From Candidatus Methanofilum arcanum (GTDB lineage: Archaea; Halobacteriota; Methanomicrobia; Methanomicrobiales; Methanospirillaceae): a stretch of 36,324 nucleotides of DNA. Both the position numbers and the translations under genes were made by a program. Under the pieces are notes generated by a model. That model made no database searches. It was given only the letters and a program-made list of their open reading frames with translations, and was not told where the DNA came from. Positions 19,188 through 26,484 of the stretch are shown piece after piece (position 1 is the first letter of the stretch; every line of letters begins with the position of its first letter). Location: the NCBI GenBank assembly GCA_031285085.1, contig JAITWW010000113.1:1-36324 (forward strand). The letters are read 5' to 3'.

Positions 19188-19703
19188 TCAAAGCGCTTTG
19201 AAACTCATACGTTTTTCAATATAAGGGAGAAGACCTCCCATAGAGATAATCTCAAGCATACGTTCTGAAAGTGGCTGAGCCTGATAGGTCATGGTATTTT
19301 TAGATTCATCCTGTACAGTTACTTTACCCGTCTCAAGTGAGCATGTGATAGTATCACCGTCATGACATGTAATATCAGGAACCTCAAAAAGTGGAATGGC
19401 AAGATTTAGTGCATTTCTGAAAAATATCCTTGAAAACGAACGCGCAACAATTGCTTGCACACCAGCAAGCTGAATCGAGACCGCAGCCTGCTCCCGTGAT
19501 GACCCACACCCAAAATTTTTTCCTGCAACAATGATACATCCATTTAAGCGTGCATGCAGCGTTGTATCAAGATCCTCAAATATATGATCAGCCCAGATCT
19601 GTGCATCTTTTGTTCGCAGATAACGCCCAGCAATGATGAGATCTGTATCGATATCATCTCCAAGACAGACTGCAGGTGCTTGTATTGTGTTGAATACGTG
19701 CAT
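19188..19703 (-). CDS. hacB: Homoaconitase / isopropylmalate isomerase-type small subunit (HacB/AksE-like)
   Basis: GDDIDTDLIIAGRYLRTKD, AGKNFGCGSSREQA; YLRT loop; ATG overlaps the hacA stop. Confidence 0.85.
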   Translation of the reverse strand: MHVFNTIQAPAVCLGDDIDTDLIIAGRYLRTKDAQIWADHIFEDLDTTLHARLNGCIIVAGKNFGCGSSREQAAVSIQLAGVQAIVARSFSRIFFRNALNLAIPLFEVPDITCHDGDTITCSLETGKVTVQDESKNTMTYQAQPLSERMLEIISMGGLLPYIEKRMSFKAL

Positions 19704-20917
19704 TATAAGACCTCCAGGGGATCTGTAATCACACCACATATAGCACTCACGGCAGCCGTTGTCACTGATGAGAGGAAGTACGAAGCATCAACACCCATTC
19801 TATTTTTGAAGTTTCGATTTGCAGTTGAAAGCCCAACCTCTCCCTTTCCGAGAACTCCTTGATGAGTTCCAAGACATGCTGCGCATCCAGGGGGAACAAG
19901 GATACAACCAGCGTCAATGAAGCTATCAATGACACCAGCCTGCAAAGCCTGTTGATAGGTACGGCGTGATGCTGGTGCAATAATTGTTCGAACAGAAACA
20001 GTCTCTCCTTTTAAGATCTCTGCAGCACGCAATAGATCTTCATATCTTCCATTTGTGCAGGTTCCAATAAACACCTGATCCAACTCGGTATCTGCGTACT
20101 TGTGCACAGGAACAACAGAGTCCACCCGATGGGGAACTGCAAGAAGCGGAACGATATCATCAAGTACGACATCAAACTCACGTGTGTATATTGGATCTTG
20201 TGGTTGTTGGTGTTTACAGTGAGTTCCGTACTGTGCCATATAGGTTTCAGTCACATGATCAGCATAAAACAGTCCCGTCTTTCCACCTGCTTCTATTGCC
20301 ATATTCGTAAGCGTCATGCGTTCAGTCATACTCAGCCCTGCACATCCCTCTCCAACAAATTCAAGCGCCTGATAGGTTGCTCCATCCATACCAAGTGTGC
20401 TTACATACCACAGCGCCAGATCCTTTGCCTCTGCACCACGTGAAAAGCTTCCGTGAAGGTGAAAACCAATACTTTCAGGAACACGAAACCAGGTCTCCCC
20501 AAGAGCCCAGAGACCCGCCATATCAGTTGCACCAACTCCTGTTGCAAACGCACCAAATGCTCCAAGTGTACAGGAGTGAGAATCAGCTCCTACAATGATC
20601 TCGCCAGGCGCCACATGCCCTTCAGCCATGTACTGATGACAGATCCCACCTCCAGCATCGGAAAAGTGAAACTGTTGCTGCTTGCAAAAGTTACGAAGTT
20701 CACGTTGCAGTGTGGCAACCTCAGAGGTGTTTGCCGGTGTATTATGATCAAAAATAACATAGACACGATAGGGGGCTTTTACGCCTTTCCCACCGAGTCT
20801 ATCCCAAACAAGCTTTGTCTGAATACCAGTGCCGTCATGGACGTACATGCGATCAACTTGTCGATCTATGTAGGTACCTGCTTCTGCACCAAGAATTTGC
20901 TCTGATAATGTTCCCAT
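19703..20917 (-). CDS. hacA: Homoaconitase / isopropylmalate isomerase-type large subunit (HacA/AksD-like)
   Basis: VGADSHSCTLGAFGAFATGVGATDMA, VFIGTCTNGRYEDL, PPGCAACLGTHQGVL. Confidence 0.88.
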   Translation of the reverse strand: MGTLSEQILGAEAGTYIDRQVDRMYVHDGTGIQTKLVWDRLGGKGVKAPYRVYVIFDHNTPANTSEVATLQRELRNFCKQQQFHFSDAGGGICHQYMAEGHVAPGEIIVGADSHSCTLGAFGAFATGVGATDMAGLWALGETWFRVPESIGFHLHGSFSRGAEAKDLALWYVSTLGMDGATYQALEFVGEGCAGLSMTERMTLTNMAIEAGGKTGLFYADHVTETYMAQYGTHCKHQQPQDPIYTREFDVVLDDIVPLLAVPHRVDSVVPVHKYADTELDQVFIGTCTNGRYEDLLRAAEILKGETVSVRTIIAPASRRTYQQALQAGVIDSFIDAGCILVPPGCAACLGTHQGVLGKGEVGLSTANRNFKNRMGVDASYFLSSVTTAAVSAICGVITDPLEVL

Positions 20918-20939
20918 TGTTCCCTCTCACTGTCTGTTT

Positions 20940-22064
20940 TTACTGAATCCCAACCACTTTTTGAATGCATGCAGTAAGAAATTCTGGAGTTACCACACCT
21001 TTTCCCTCACTATGCTGTTTAATATCAGCAAGAATAGCATCTACCTTTTCTTCAGGCACTGAGTACCCGGAGGTTGAGAGCACATGGATGAGAGCTTTTC
21101 TTCCGGTATGCTTTCCAAGAAGGAATTTTCGGGTGGTTCCAAGAAGAGCAGGCTGAATGTACTCATATGTCTGTGGATCCTCAAGCATGGCAGCGATATG
21201 AATGCCACTCTCATGTGCAAATGCATGATCTCCAACGATCGGTTTCGTAACTGGGATTGGAATGCCGGTATACTCTGCAACCATCTCTGAGAGAGCAGGA
21301 ATCTCAGTAAGATCATATCGATCCACTCCTCCTTTGAGTCGAATCCCAACCAAAACCTCCTCTAACCGAGCATTTCCACATCTCTCACCAATTCCATTCA
21401 CGGTCGTGTGAAGCTGAAATGCACCAAGTTGAGCTGCGGTAAGTGTGTTTGCAGTGGCACATCCAAGATCATTATGACAATGAATCGCAAGGGGAAGCGA
21501 GATCTGAGGGAGGATTGTCTGCAATCGCTCTTGTAAATCTAATGGTGTTAAGCATCCTGTTGTATCAGCAAATGTCAGCAGCGTGGCATGATGTTCTGCA
21601 ATCTCCTGATAAACCGAGATGAGAGCAGAAACATCTGTTCTCGAAGCATCTTCTGCCCCAAAACGAACCTGGAGACCGTGATCTACGGCGTAATCAACCT
21701 CAGTAGCAGCCCGTGCTACCATCTCTTCAAGGGGCTTTTTATATTTATGCTGGAGATGAGTAGGAGAGGTTGCCAGAAACAGGCTTACCATATCGACCTC
21801 AGCGGTAATGGCAGCTTCTAGATCTGAACGCATCGTTCTGGCGAGTCCACAGATCCTTGCATGTAACCCTTCTCGTGAGATTGCACGTACAGCTTTGCAT
21901 TCTTCTTCTGATATCACTGGAAACCCAGCTTCAATGACCTCAACACCAATAGCATCAAGCTGGTGTGCAATGGCAATCTTTTCTTCTTTGGTGAATGCAA
22001 CACCTGGGGTTTGTTCTCCATCACGCAGTGTTACATCACATATCTCAACATTCCACATATTCAT
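20940..22064 (-). CDS. aksA: Homocitrate synthase family protein (AksA-like)
   Basis: EICDVTLRDGEQTPGVAFTKEEKIAIAHQLDAIGVEVIEAGFPVIS; HCHNDLGCATANTLTAAQLGA; adjacent hacAB. Confidence 0.87.
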   Translation of the reverse strand: MNMWNVEICDVTLRDGEQTPGVAFTKEEKIAIAHQLDAIGVEVIEAGFPVISEEECKAVRAISREGLHARICGLARTMRSDLEAAITAEVDMVSLFLATSPTHLQHKYKKPLEEMVARAATEVDYAVDHGLQVRFGAEDASRTDVSALISVYQEIAEHHATLLTFADTTGCLTPLDLQERLQTILPQISLPLAIHCHNDLGCATANTLTAAQLGAFQLHTTVNGIGERCGNARLEEVLVGIRLKGGVDRYDLTEIPALSEMVAEYTGIPIPVTKPIVGDHAFAHESGIHIAAMLEDPQTYEYIQPALLGTTRKFLLGKHTGRKALIHVLSTSGYSVPEEKVDAILADIKQHSEGKGVVTPEFLTACIQKVVGIQ

Positions 22065-23223
22065 GATAAATCACCTCTTGGCAGTTTCCTTGGACTACAA
22101 ATGTTCTCGGTTCTTTTCTCTCCTGCATCGGCACTCCTATCGCGGACTGAATCTTTCGCAGCGCAGTACTGTCATCGCAGGTACATACATACGGGTTTGA
22201 AAAAGCGATATATGGCACAATATCAGATATTTTCTGTCCTCCTGTCATTCCCAGTTTGTAATTTTGTAAAACAACAGTTATTACTGGAATTTTTTGTTCA
22301 TAGATCTCAATGAGTGCCTGCAGTCCAGAGTGGAGGAGTGCATAATCTCCAATGAATGCAACACCGGTTGTATGAGCGGTTGCAATGGAGGAACCCATGC
22401 CATACGAGGCAAATCCAACGGTGTATGGAGTATTCATGAGAAGCACACAACATCCTGCATCACAGATGATGGGTTTTCCTGCTTCCTCAAACATATCAAA
22501 TAGAGCTCGAAATGAACAATCACGGCACAAAGAGAGGGATTTTTTTCTCCTTGAGCGGTGCGTATCAGCAGGTGTGAGATGAGGTGAAGGATGAATACAA
22601 GGGTACACAAGCCCACCTTGGTATCCATTCATCTGTTCTGTTATGTTCTGCACACGTACTCCTCGCCCATACATGGTACAATCTGGATCTGCAAGCCCAG
22701 TGCAGTTTTCTTTCTGTGGTTTCACAGATATCGAGTCGGTATTTGGTTCTGGTATTGTTATATGAGAACGAAGTTCAGTGTCTGTTACTCGTACGATGGT
22801 AATGCGGGAGAAGCGTTCAGAGGCTAAAAACGCCTCTTCGAGTGCCTCTCTTGGACTGTGCCCACACAGTTCTACCACGGCAGCTCTGGCAATTGGGCCA
22901 TAATATCGTGGGTCTTGGGCGGTTTGAGAGGCAGAGAGGTACTCATCATCTCCTGCAATTACTATGACACCAGCTTTTAATCCCTGGAATGTTGCATTGG
23001 CAAGGGGATCAGCAAGTGCATTCATGCCAACCTGTTTTACAATCACCGCAGCCCGCGTGCCTACGAGTGAGTGACCAAGTGCGAACTCTAAAGCGATTTT
23101 TTCATTTTTGACAATGGTTGCATGAGCCTGTTCACAAAGAGCAGATACCGGAAACCCTGGGACGCAATAGGTTGGAATGCCGCTTTTTTTGAGTATTGTT
23201 CCGAGTGCGTGTTCAATTTTCAT
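22045..23223 (-). CDS. Short IorA-like ThDP-dependent enzyme (candidate 2-oxoacid decarboxylase)
   Basis: PYR-domain Glu (NEKIALEFALGHSLVGTRAAVIVKQVGMNALADPL); ThDP motif GDYALLHSGLQALIEIYEQKIPVITVVLQNYKLGMTGGQ; lacks C-terminal ferredoxin domain. Confidence 0.75.
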   Translation of the reverse strand: MKIEHALGTILKKSGIPTYCVPGFPVSALCEQAHATIVKNEKIALEFALGHSLVGTRAAVIVKQVGMNALADPLANATFQGLKAGVIVIAGDDEYLSASQTAQDPRYYGPIARAAVVELCGHSPREALEEAFLASERFSRITIVRVTDTELRSHITIPEPNTDSISVKPQKENCTGLADPDCTMYGRGVRVQNITEQMNGYQGGLVYPCIHPSPHLTPADTHRSRRKKSLSLCRDCSFRALFDMFEEAGKPIICDAGCCVLLMNTPYTVGFASYGMGSSIATAHTTGVAFIGDYALLHSGLQALIEIYEQKIPVITVVLQNYKLGMTGGQKISDIVPYIAFSNPYVCTCDDSTALRKIQSAIGVPMQERKEPRTFVVQGNCQEVIYHEYVEC

Positions 23224-23267
23224 TTTTGTGGGATGGGTGTTTTTGATCTTGTTCCTTCAGGAGATGT

Positions 23268-24251
23268 TCATGAGTCTCTTCCAACAACGAGATCACATCC
23301 ACCACAGCGTGGGCACATGGTCTTACAGAGGGAAGGGTCAAGCTCTGCACTTCCAAGTGCTTTTGTCATGATCTCATGCATTGCAAGTAGGCGTTTTGAA
23401 TCAGGACGATGGTACCCTTCTGCCTCAAGTTCGGCATGTGGGCTTAAGGGGCGAATGATGGGAATGACTCCAAGATCGCAGAGTTCGTAAATACATGCTT
23501 CCATCTCCTGATCACTCTCTCCAAGCCCGAGAATTACATTTGAAAATACATGTCCTTTTCCAAACAAGGGAACAGAGGCTGCAAGTGCAAAGAGCAGTAC
23601 ATCTCGATTGCTTTCTGGACAGAATTTTGCCAGAATATCAGCAGTTGCTGCCTCAAGGTTAAATTTGACTTCACACGCTCCTGCTTCATACAGGCGCATG
23701 GCGCTTTTTTCTGTTGGATAGATAGAGACCCCAATTGGAAGCTCTGGGAACTCATCCCGAAGCCTTGTTACTACTGAGACTGTGTTCTCCTCTTCTTCCT
23801 CCACACTGTGCATGATCCCAGAGGTCAGCGATATCGCACGTACAGATCCATACTCCTGCTGTTTTTGAATCATGTGCACGATCTCATCATTGCTCTTTCT
23901 GCGTCCTGCAAGGGATGGAACATTACAGTACTTGCATGAAAAGATGCAAGAACCAGAGATCGTGATATATGCTTGTTCTGGACAGTGTAAGGAAGCAGGT
24001 TCGAGCTTTGCAATATGTTGTTCATTGTGTAAGGTGAATGAGACAACTCCTCCTCCACGGTGGGAGAGCAGGACAGATCCTGTTTTTGAGAGAGAGAGTT
24101 TGACACGATGACCATGATAGTTGAGAAATACCGCTCCATCACCTCCTGCACCAGGGCCTGCTATTGACTGACTTACAAACTGGTGCCACGAAGCACCGGA
24201 TATCTGAGCTGTTCCAGCAGCGAGCAAGTCTGCTTTTGTGTTTATCCACAT
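23268..24251 (-). CDS. Radical SAM protein of unknown function with extra C-terminal Cys cluster
   Basis: SGSCIFSCKYCNVP (CxxxCxxC); C-terminal SLCKTMCPRCGGCDLV; overlaps the mmp11-like gene. Confidence 0.85.
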   Translation of the reverse strand: MWINTKADLLAAGTAQISGASWHQFVSQSIAGPGAGGDGAVFLNYHGHRVKLSLSKTGSVLLSHRGGGVVSFTLHNEQHIAKLEPASLHCPEQAYITISGSCIFSCKYCNVPSLAGRRKSNDEIVHMIQKQQEYGSVRAISLTSGIMHSVEEEEENTVSVVTRLRDEFPELPIGVSIYPTEKSAMRLYEAGACEVKFNLEAATADILAKFCPESNRDVLLFALAASVPLFGKGHVFSNVILGLGESDQEMEACIYELCDLGVIPIIRPLSPHAELEAEGYHRPDSKRLLAMHEIMTKALGSAELDPSLCKTMCPRCGGCDLVVGRDS

Positions 24252-25150
24252 AATTCAAGTGCCTCCTCAAACTTCGTATAAAAAGGAATGGCGGCGATTG
24301 CACCTACCAGACCTCTGCCCATCATTGGCGTTGAAAGACCAGGGACTGCAGTGTCTCCTAGATACTGAGCCCTGGTATCGCCGTGATCAACATATCCCTG
24401 CTTTACTCTCCAACCATAGGGGAGAAGAGCATCTGGGGAGAATCCAACATAGACTGCCATGCCTGTCTCCGAAGAGAGGGTGTAGGCTTTGAGCAACTCT
24501 GAGAACTGCTCAATAAGTGAGGCTTGCGAGGTGGTTGCAAACTCGACAACTAATGCCACACAGTTTTTTGTGCGAAACTCCACTGGATATAACTGGACAA
24601 TGGTGTGTGAGAGGTACTGGTGCTCAGGGTTGTTTGTTTCTATGACACGTGCAATATTATGGACAAGTGTCCATGTCGCTCCCTCTTCGGCAGTATCGGT
24701 GTCATCAACACCGATGAGAACACGAGTATTTTTTGCAAGTACAATCATTGATCCGGCTGTTTTTCCTCCTCCTGATTCAGTGTACTCTGAACGAAGAACA
24801 CCTCCCGCAGATGCGCGGCAGATAGATGCTCCAACTCCTCCTCCTCCAAGACCAAGATAAGAGATGTAGATCTCATCTCCTTTGATCTGCGCTCCTGAGA
24901 TTCCAGCGGGAAAAACAGAACCCTGGAGGTCTAACGAGATATTTCCGGTATGGAGAATGTATCTTGTGGTGTTCGCAACCGTTCTCACAGAAGTTACAAG
25001 TGGGCTTTTTTGATACTGTGTCTTTGCCCACATTGCACCGCCTACACAATCGAACTGTTCAATAAGCTCAATTTCTTTTTCAGATTCACTTCCAATGGCA
25101 GTTATTTTTGGATATGTAATGCTGTAGGGGTTTTCTATTGTGAGAGTCAT
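24242..25150 (-). CDS. Methanogenesis marker protein 11-like
   Basis: Recognised pattern: FDCVGGAMWAKTQYQKSPLV, Gly-rich LGLGGGGVGAS, VLIGVDDTDTAEEGATW, GRGLVGAIAAIPF. Confidence 0.75.
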   Translation of the reverse strand: MTLTIENPYSITYPKITAIGSESEKEIELIEQFDCVGGAMWAKTQYQKSPLVTSVRTVANTTRYILHTGNISLDLQGSVFPAGISGAQIKGDEIYISYLGLGGGGVGASICRASAGGVLRSEYTESGGGKTAGSMIVLAKNTRVLIGVDDTDTAEEGATWTLVHNIARVIETNNPEHQYLSHTIVQLYPVEFRTKNCVALVVEFATTSQASLIEQFSELLKAYTLSSETGMAVYVGFSPDALLPYGWRVKQGYVDHGDTRAQYLGDTAVPGLSTPMMGRGLVGAIAAIPFYTKFEEALELCG

Positions 25151-25272: not shown

Positions 25273-26484
25273 TTATGAAGTTGTATTCTGGGAGGATAAT
25301 CGTTTTTCGATGAGATCCATATCAGCTCCTGAGAATCTGTTTCGAATGATCTCAAGTACCCGTTTTCGATAGATCTCTTCGATCTGTTCTGGTGTGGTGA
25401 TGCCTTTGTTTAGGATCTGGGGTCGTCTCTGCAACGACTGATTAAACATTGGCTCTGCATAATGGAATGCTCGTCCTTCTCCAAGCGCAAAGAGAAACTT
25501 TCGAATCGTGAGTCTTGGCATTGTTTCCATGTGTGTGGAGATGGTGTTTATCATATCAGTCATTGAAACCGGAGATCTCTCAAGGAAGCAGGAAAGTAGG
25601 CTTTTTGAGAGTTCAAGGCGTGTCTTTAGATCAAAGGGGTATCTTAGATTTTTTGTGATGAACTCCAGGATCTCGTCTTTGGTGCATGATGATTGAAGAG
25701 GGATATCTCCAGAACGTTTGAATAGCACTTGGGGGTGTCCAAGTGAAGAGGTTGAGATCTCCTCAATGAGGTCTCCTTCAAATGATTCCATAAACTCAGT
25801 GAAGCTATGAAATCCTAAACTTCCTTCTGAGAAGGAGGGTTGCAGTCGAAGGAGTTCATTTTTGAGGAGCGAAAATAATATTGCTTCATCTGGATTTTTC
25901 GAACGGATATATCTAATAAGGAGATCACGTCCTTTTCGAAGTGAGCTTGTGAGTACCTCTGATTCTTCGTCTGGCTCTTCATGTGCATCAAAATCTGGCA
26001 GTAAGAATACGCCAAGTAAGGTATCCAATGATTGATACTCAGAACAGTTATCTCTGATAGTATCTCCCACAGAGTCATCAAATCCCGTGAGATAGACTTT
26101 TTTTCCTCGCGCAAGGACGCGCCGAATGAGGGGGAGAAAGTCGGTATCGCCGGATCCAATCATTACCGCATCAAGTGGGTAAAACTGCATATCTTCAAGG
26201 ACATCAATGCTCATCTGAATGTCTGCGCCGTTTTTACCACGATGTGATGTTCCAGGTAGGTATTTGAGTTCAAAGCCGTATTTTATGAGATGTCTGATAT
26301 AGCGATTGTTGTCAGGCCGAGCCCAATCAGCATATGCCTTTTTTATACTGATTGTTCCTTTTGTAGCTCCATAATCTAGGAGAGGTCCAAGTTTTAAGGG
26401 GCGTTCAATGTGTGAAAAGACTTGATCTGCTGAAATTGCAAGATTTTCAAAGTCGAGGTAGATAGCAAGCTGGTGGGAGCTCAT
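25273..26484 (-). CDS. NYN-domain putative ribonuclease with LOTUS/OST-HTH-like middle domain
   Basis: AIYLDFENLAISA, NGADIQMSIDVLEDM, VMIGSGDTDFLPLIRRVLARGKKVYLTG; then LFSLLKNELLRLQPSFSEGSLGFHSFTEFMESFEGDLIEE. Confidence 0.75.
   Translation of the reverse strand: MSSHQLAIYLDFENLAISADQVFSHIERPLKLGPLLDYGATKGTISIKKAYADWARPDNNRYIRHLIKYGFELKYLPGTSHRGKNGADIQMSIDVLEDMQFYPLDAVMIGSGDTDFLPLIRRVLARGKKVYLTGFDDSVGDTIRDNCSEYQSLDTLLGVFLLPDFDAHEEPDEESEVLTSSLRKGRDLLIRYIRSKNPDEAILFSLLKNELLRLQPSFSEGSLGFHSFTEFMESFEGDLIEEISTSSLGHPQVLFKRSGDIPLQSSCTKDEILEFITKNLRYPFDLKTRLELSKSLLSCFLERSPVSMTDMINTISTHMETMPRLTIRKFLFALGEGRAFHYAEPMFNQSLQRRPQILNKGITTPEQIEEIYRKRVLEIIRNRFSGADMDLIEKRLSSQNTTS

Follow-up and report, generated by a model that had tools for sequence, protein, structure and literature searches.

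A conserved operon joining methanogenesis marker protein 11 to 2-oxoacid chain elongation suggests candidate genes for the later steps of coenzyme B biosynthesis

Which genes carry out the later steps of coenzyme B biosynthesis? Methyl-coenzyme M reductase, the source of nearly all biological methane, takes its electrons from coenzyme B. We analyzed a 36,324-nt stretch of DNA (hereafter, the window) from Candidatus Methanofilum arcanum (GCA_031285085.1, contig JAITWW010000113.1), which carries at positions 19188–25150, on the minus strand, the genes mmp11 (methanogenesis marker protein 11), a radical S-adenosylmethionine (SAM) protein (rSAM), a thiamine diphosphate (ThDP)-dependent enzyme, aksA, hacA and hacB. 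These genes belong to one operon, and across coenzyme-B-making archaea the candidate genes are conserved together with aksA and hacAB. We consider, with a probability of roughly 0.8, that the cluster is a coenzyme B operon. A 2011 review listed the later enzymes of the pathway as unknown (PMC3087415), and a paper of 2025 still described the pathway in that way (PMC12068725), in agreement with the initial annotation of this DNA, which had held that these steps lacked firmly assigned genes. In the open-access literature, we found no paper devoted to Mmp11 or to the later coenzyme B steps, and none tying Mmp11, these ThDP proteins or the associated protein DUF7714 to coenzyme B.

An operon conserved throughout the order

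All six open reading frames (ORFs) are intact, and family scans agree with the names given to them in the initial annotation. The tight packing that it described is borne out by the ORF coordinates: mmp11 and the rSAM gene overlap by 10 bp (24242–24251), the ThDP gene and aksA overlap by 20 bp (22045–22064), and the gaps between rSAM and ThDP and between aksA and hacA are 44 bp and 22 bp, respectively. The longest ORF of hacB begins at 19739; the ATG at 19703, which is the start that fits the relatives of ~156 aa, shares one base with the stop codon of hacA.

The order of the window was taken as Methanomicrobiales-like. mmp11 was detected in all 61 relatives of this order that were searched, and 40 mmp11 loci were fetched, 39 of which are informative (one ends at a contig edge). 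In 37 of the 40 loci, the six genes follow one another without interruption and in the order seen in the window, and one more locus keeps the order around a 3-kb insert, so that the arrangement holds in 38 of the 39 informative loci; the remaining two consist of one that runs off its contig and one that retains only mmp11 and rSAM. The genes are spaced mostly by −29 to +3 bp. Because the proteins encoded at these loci are only ~38–63% identical to those of the window, we deduced that the six-gene packing is held by selection. Locus L156 of a genome (G170) with the title Methanomicrobiaceae archaeon has the same mmp11–rSAM–ThDP genes.

In this order, the operon usually extends into the gene for DUF7714, an XcbA-like protein, and then into an aksF-type dehydrogenase gene. 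DUF7714 lies within ~4 kb of the ThDP gene in 18 of 18 other genomes of the order in the 120-genome draw described below, and aksF comes next after DUF7714 in the loci read in detail. At the window locus, asd and alba take the place of these two genes downstream of hacB, and the DUF7714 gene of this genome is located at the edge of another contig (C64:46–837). The six genes originally proposed as an operon stand, but its normal extent includes DUF7714 and aksF. The window also encodes, immediately before mmp11 and in the same orientation (25273–26484), a protein with NYN and OST-HTH/LOTUS domains; among the fetched mmp11 loci, this neighbor recurs only in a genome of the same genus (L031).

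Rearranged clusters in other lineages

We drew 120 genomes from the same phylum, using the same draw in each search, and compared the resulting presence sets by hand from tables. The IorA-like ThDP enzyme and DUF7714 occupy an identical set of 48 genomes; a strong mmp11 match is present in 47 of these, and rSAM is found in all 48 and in four others. Because these genomes fall into few orders, the co-occurrence reflects few independent events, and the gene arrangements carry more weight as evidence. In Methanocella-like genomes (a label that, like Methanosarcina-like, was inferred from gene content), the cluster reads mmp11–rSAM, ThDP, inverted aksA, hacA–hacB, aksF and DUF7714. In f7 genomes, the ThDP gene is joined by an inverted aksA and by hacA–hacB, with DUF7714 close by. 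In the Methanosarcina-like families, mmp11 is paired with the ThDP gene, and hacB, DUF7714 and aksF are grouped at a separate site; the DUF7714 profile also found a match in Methanosarcina acetivorans, which served as a named control. No relatives were found in the viral contig set that was searched.

A second phylum, that of archaeon H03B2 (probably Thermoproteota), provides a further comparison. Here, mmp11 is present in 14 of 121 genomes, and in 12 of the 14 a ThDP gene lies immediately before it. hacA and/or hacB precede this pair in 11 of the 12 loci, the twelfth being cut by a contig edge, and aksA can be seen in seven of the loci; wherever the HacB loop is readable, it is YLRS or YLRT. 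The ThDP protein of these loci resembles acetolactate synthase (TPP_N, M and C domains) and belongs to a subfamily other than the IorA-like one. Because two distinct types of ThDP enzyme fill the same functional place, the ThDP reaction appears to belong with Mmp11, and we regard this as the strongest single argument for such a reaction here. The neighborhood comparison had been set beforehand as a test able to refute the proposed operon; what it revealed was conservation across the order, rearranged clusters in other families and, in another phylum, an operon that arose by convergence.

Two further genes attend these loci. In six loci of the second phylum, the gene for Mmp4/MtxX, a phosphotransacetylase-like methanogenesis marker, is located between aksA and hacA, and in several lineages it occupies this position or lies beside mmp11 (L242, L243, L247, L248, L250, L252, L192, L259, L260 and L265). 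A gene for a GMC flavoprotein comes right after mmp11 in 11 of the 12 second-phylum loci (including L246, L248–L254, L242 and L243) and slightly further away in L241. Judging from gene position, Mmp4 may belong to coenzyme B synthesis; the flavoprotein may carry out a reductive step there.

Mmp11 as a putative ATP-dependent enzyme

Mmp11 of the window (302 aa; 24242–25150, minus strand) matched TIGR03280 with 320.4 bits, above the cut-off of 255.8, and its C-terminal half matched the kinase domain of TiaS (TiaS_TCKD, PF22641) with 45 bits. Of 107 homologues, 105 retain the kinase motif GVDDTDTAEEGATW (DDTD) and the Thr aligned with Thr18 of TiaS. In TiaS, this domain adds phosphate both to cytidine 34 and to its own Thr18. 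Because this motif is retained, we propose an ATP-dependent step for Mmp11, as its presence suggests. The initial annotation had raised the prospect that this marker might gain a pathway, and its neighborhood in several lineages and in a second phylum supports that view: Mmp11 very probably acts in coenzyme B synthesis. For its exact step we can offer only a tentative choice, with phosphorylation of the threonine moiety as the most likely reaction and ATP-dependent coupling (amide ligation) as the second. A single-sequence structure prediction of Mmp11 had a mean predicted local distance difference test score (pLDDT) of 36 and was not used. A tandem Mmp11 paralogue lies upstream of mmp11 in 33 of the 61 relatives (among loci L032–L070), although none is present in the window; it is ~30% identical to Mmp11 and scores ~170–210 bits against TIGR03280.

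Might mmp11 and rSAM instead modify methyl-coenzyme M reductase, F430 or tRNA, their proximity to coenzyme B genes being a matter of regulation or ancestry? Other methanogenesis markers are radical SAM enzymes that modify the reductase (PMC5943407, PMC11796369), Mmp11 is kin to a tRNA enzyme, and a pair of mmp11 and a radical SAM gene occurs without aks or hac genes in Archaeoglobus-like genomes and in archaeon H03B2. However, mmp11 of the Methanosarcina-like families adjoins the ThDP gene with no rSAM there, and the second phylum pairs mmp11 with a different ThDP type and hacAB. Moreover, the partners stay while their order changes between lineages, which passive inheritance does not predict. 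We consider this alternative improbable and favor a role for Mmp11 in coenzyme B synthesis.

The radical SAM protein, DUF7714 and the thiol

The rSAM protein (327 aa; 23268–24251, minus strand) has a PF04055 domain with a CX3CX2C motif and is thus a member of the radical SAM superfamily. Residue C211 and a C-terminal CxxCxGCD are invariant in 23 aligned sequences of the order, and CX3CX2C and the C-terminal cysteines are kept in 63 sequences across wider taxa; the extra cysteines probably bind an auxiliary cluster. No curated family was matched above its cut-off; there were weak matches to MSMEG_0568 (TIGR04043; 70.8 bits against a cut-off of 303.7), LipS2 and BioB. The radical SAM neighbor that overlaps mmp11 in archaeon H03B2 does reach TIGR04043, with 326.9 bits. 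A radical SAM partner of Mmp11 recurs, but in some lineages only. In the Methanosarcina-like families, a separate rSAM gene has no coenzyme B genes among its neighbors. Archaeoglobus-like genomes carry an overlapping pair of mmp11 and a TIGR04043-like radical SAM gene, McrA being present in L239 and L258, and some genomes of the order (L236 and L237) have a second copy of the rSAM family outside the operon, nearer to the Methanosarcina-like type.

We considered whether rSAM could be the enzyme that installs the coenzyme B thiol, acting like lipoyl or biotin synthase. These two enzymes are its best matches among solved structures, LipS2 is among its NCBIfam matches, and the additional invariant cysteines could bind a sacrificial cluster. 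Nevertheless, the LipS2 and BioB matches are far under cut-off, the precursor proposed for this step, suberate semialdehyde (PMC3087415), is an aldehyde, for which C–H activation would be unnecessary, and rSAM went undetected in the class I methanogen genomes that were searched. On this last result, a universal thiol enzyme is rejected, because a protein undetected in the class I methanogens searched cannot serve as a universal coenzyme B step, and thiol insertion by rSAM is quite unlikely in general. The protein is at most a lineage-specific part of the pathway; as an accessory it perhaps functions in sulfur delivery or redox activation, although any one such role is doubtful.

We regard DUF7714 as a better candidate than rSAM for the thiol step. 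It has five invariant Cys residues in the alignment and matches the XcbA family over nearly its full length, with 42–91 bits against a cut-off of 150; a PDB profile search with DUF7714 returned no match. In the coenzyme M synthesis of bacteria, XcbA reportedly acts at sulfoacetaldehyde (PMC11507031), and sulfoacetaldehyde can be viewed as a chemical analogue of 7-oxoheptanoate. That DUF7714 turns 7-oxoheptanoate into the thiol is a proposal to which we give somewhat less than even odds.

A putative 2-oxosuberate decarboxylase

The ThDP-dependent enzyme (392 aa; 22045–23223, minus strand; PF02775) has an IorA-like core of PYR and PP domains. The only NCBIfam family that it matched is TIGR03336 (IorA), with 123 bits against a cut-off of 650.9, and the protein stops after the PP domain, with no C-terminal ferredoxin domain. 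Four cysteines (C233, C236, C258 and C381) are invariant in an alignment of 22 sequences and also occur in orthologues of ~500 aa; the catalytic glutamate region and a GD(Y/F)...N motif are kept in proteins of both lengths. Because there is neither a ferredoxin tail nor an IorB partner, a simple decarboxylase fits this enzyme. A PDB profile search yielded nothing useful beyond one weak, partial match to oxalyl-CoA decarboxylase. From pathway logic and the gene neighborhood, we infer that the enzyme is probably a 2-oxosuberate decarboxylase that yields 7-oxoheptanoate.

Could it be ComDE, the sulfopyruvate decarboxylase of coenzyme M synthesis? ComDE is likewise a two-domain ThDP decarboxylase whose aldehyde later becomes a thiol, and Methanomicrobiales reportedly use it on the cysteate route (PMC12713407). 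Yet the NCBIfam matches of the window protein and of a ~500-aa orthologue include neither ComD nor ComE, whereas the IorA family is present among them. In addition, comDE of M. acetivorans lies beside cysteate synthase and MMP16 (MA3297–3299, PMC12068725), away from mmp11, whereas the neighbors of the ThDP gene are aks and hac genes in several lineages. With no family match and different neighbors, this identity was rejected as very unlikely, and decarboxylation of 2-oxosuberate is preferred.

Chain elongation for coenzyme B rather than leucine

The remaining genes of the window are aksA (20940–22064; 374 aa; HMGL-like and HCS_D2 domains), encoding a (homo)n-citrate synthase, and hacA (19703–20917; 404 aa; TIGR01343/NF001614 above cut-off) and hacB (19188–19703), encoding the large and small subunits of a (homo)n-aconitase, all on the minus strand. 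The best solved relative of HacB in a PDB search is the homoaconitase small subunit 2pkp. Its loop reads YLRT, which we take to be the determinant known from work on the M. jannaschii homoaconitase, and YLRT is found in the window and in 37 of 37 readable operon copies of the order. In LeuD-type copies outside the operon, YL or FL is followed by hydrophobic residues. Two LeuD-type genes are present in 13 of the 15 order genomes searched; the genomes of the window and of its same-genus relative are incomplete, and in each only the operon copy was found. A Methanosarcina-like relative scores 232.5 bits against the homoaconitase family NF040625 (cut-off 230). AksA of the window is without the C-terminal regulatory domain of LeuA, and the AksA-type proteins of these clusters are 368–396 aa long, compared with 499–564 aa for the LeuA type (504–564 aa for those of a related leucine operon). 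Because HacB has the YLRT loop, we assign aksA and hacAB to coenzyme B rather than to leucine, and the chain-elongation role named in the initial annotation thereby gains support at the level of sequence.

A leucine/isoleucine operon (LeuA, LeuCD and an acetolactate-synthase-like ThDP enzyme) with mmp11 as a passenger might be suspected, because aksA and hacAB share superfamilies with leuA and leuCD, a related genome (L156) has a genuine leucine operon (leuA, an ilvB-like gene, leuC, leuD and leuB) and mmp11 lies near leuCDB in Methanobrevibacter, but this most unlikely reading was dropped on the loop test, in which all readable operon copies of HacB have YLRT or YLRS and second copies in the same genomes differ, and it conflicts further with the AksA-type lengths, the IorA-like rather than acetolactate-synthase-like ThDP enzyme of the window, and the finding that no acetohydroxyacid isomeroreductase was seen near the cluster.

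Points that weigh against a coenzyme B operon

Several observations weigh against assigning these genes to coenzyme B. The presence of the families in coenzyme-B-making methanogens, on which the initial annotation had staked its proposal, was confirmed for mmp11, which is broad, but not for rSAM; rSAM, the IorA-like ThDP enzyme and DUF7714 are all restricted in distribution, although coenzyme B itself is universal. The rSAM profile, which scores copies of the order above 470 bits, had no match among 36 genomes from the Methanothermococcus phylum and only two weak matches among 60 from the Methanobacteriaceae phylum, both searches being without a positive control. The DUF7714 profile found no match in Methanocaldococcus jannaschii, and McrA-bearing members of the f10 and f12 families are without ThDP and DUF7714. 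McrA was not detected in the Archaeoglobus-like L238, L256 and L257, despite their pair of mmp11 and radical SAM genes, and the second-phylum set was chosen by mmp11 presence alone. In Methanobrevibacter (L190 and L191), mmp11 comes after ribH, and the leuD of the nearby leuC–leuD–leuB has a LeuD-type loop, YLIY. HacB of the window itself scores 157.8 bits against NF040625, under its cut-off. Against DUF7714 as the thiol enzyme, Chadwick and colleagues suggest that MMP16 or L-ASST forms the thiol of coenzyme B (PMC12068725).

A proposed pathway

Taken together, the genes suggest the following scheme for coenzyme B synthesis. AksA and HacAB, with an AksF putatively encoded elsewhere in the genome, would extend 2-oxoglutarate to 2-oxosuberate, a role established for their homologues. 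The ThDP enzyme would then decarboxylate 2-oxosuberate to 7-oxoheptanoate, and the XcbA-like DUF7714, on another contig here, would convert this aldehyde to the thiol in most relatives. Mmp11 would catalyze an ATP-dependent step, either phosphorylation of the threonine moiety or, failing that, ATP-dependent coupling, and rSAM would be a lineage-specific accessory in sulfur delivery or redox activation. Among the three upstream proteins first put forward as positional candidates, the ThDP enzyme stands as a strong one and Mmp11 is a strong candidate for the pathway and a weak one for its particular step, but rSAM is a weak candidate for any step.

We speculate that the cluster and its relatives might even account for all of the missing half of coenzyme B synthesis, with two ThDP types recruited separately as 2-oxosuberate decarboxylase, DUF7714 as the thiol synthase that forms 7-mercaptoheptanoate, Mmp11, derived from TiaS, as a kinase or ligase of small molecules finishing the threonine phosphate end, and Mmp4 as a partner in other phyla; as a complete set, this is possible but unlikely. 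The steps after 2-oxosuberate gain named, testable candidate genes, and a universal marker, Mmp11 (probably Mmp4 as well), is placed in a pathway. The candidate enzymes could also serve as targets for methane inhibitors.

Comparison with known systems

How do these proteins relate to known systems? Like TiaS, the tRNA-Ile2 agmatinylcytidine synthetase, Mmp11 has the kinase and ferredoxin-like domains in its C-terminal half, together with the DDTD motif and the Thr18-aligned Thr; the rest of TiaS is missing from Mmp11, and separate TiaS-like genes of ~390 aa exist in the same genomes. The ThDP enzyme resembles IorA in its single chain of PYR and PP domains and in its CxxC and DxGC cysteines, but it is far under the family cut-off, has no ferredoxin domain and is not adjacent to an IorB gene. 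With ComDE it shares a predicted reaction, in which ThDP serves to decarboxylate a 2-oxoacid and the resulting aldehyde goes on to become a thiol, although it has no sequence match to the ComD and ComE families and has other neighbors. DUF7714 resembles XcbA of bacterial coenzyme M synthesis over almost its whole length; it differs in falling below the family cut-off and in being linked to hacB and aksF rather than to coenzyme M genes. With the AksA/HacAB/AksF chain-elongation system of coenzyme B synthesis, the cluster agrees in that aksA, hacA and hacB are of the expected types, hacB encodes YLRT and aksF stands alongside in relatives; here, with no aksF in the window, the chain-elongation genes share their operon with mmp11, rSAM and the ThDP gene.

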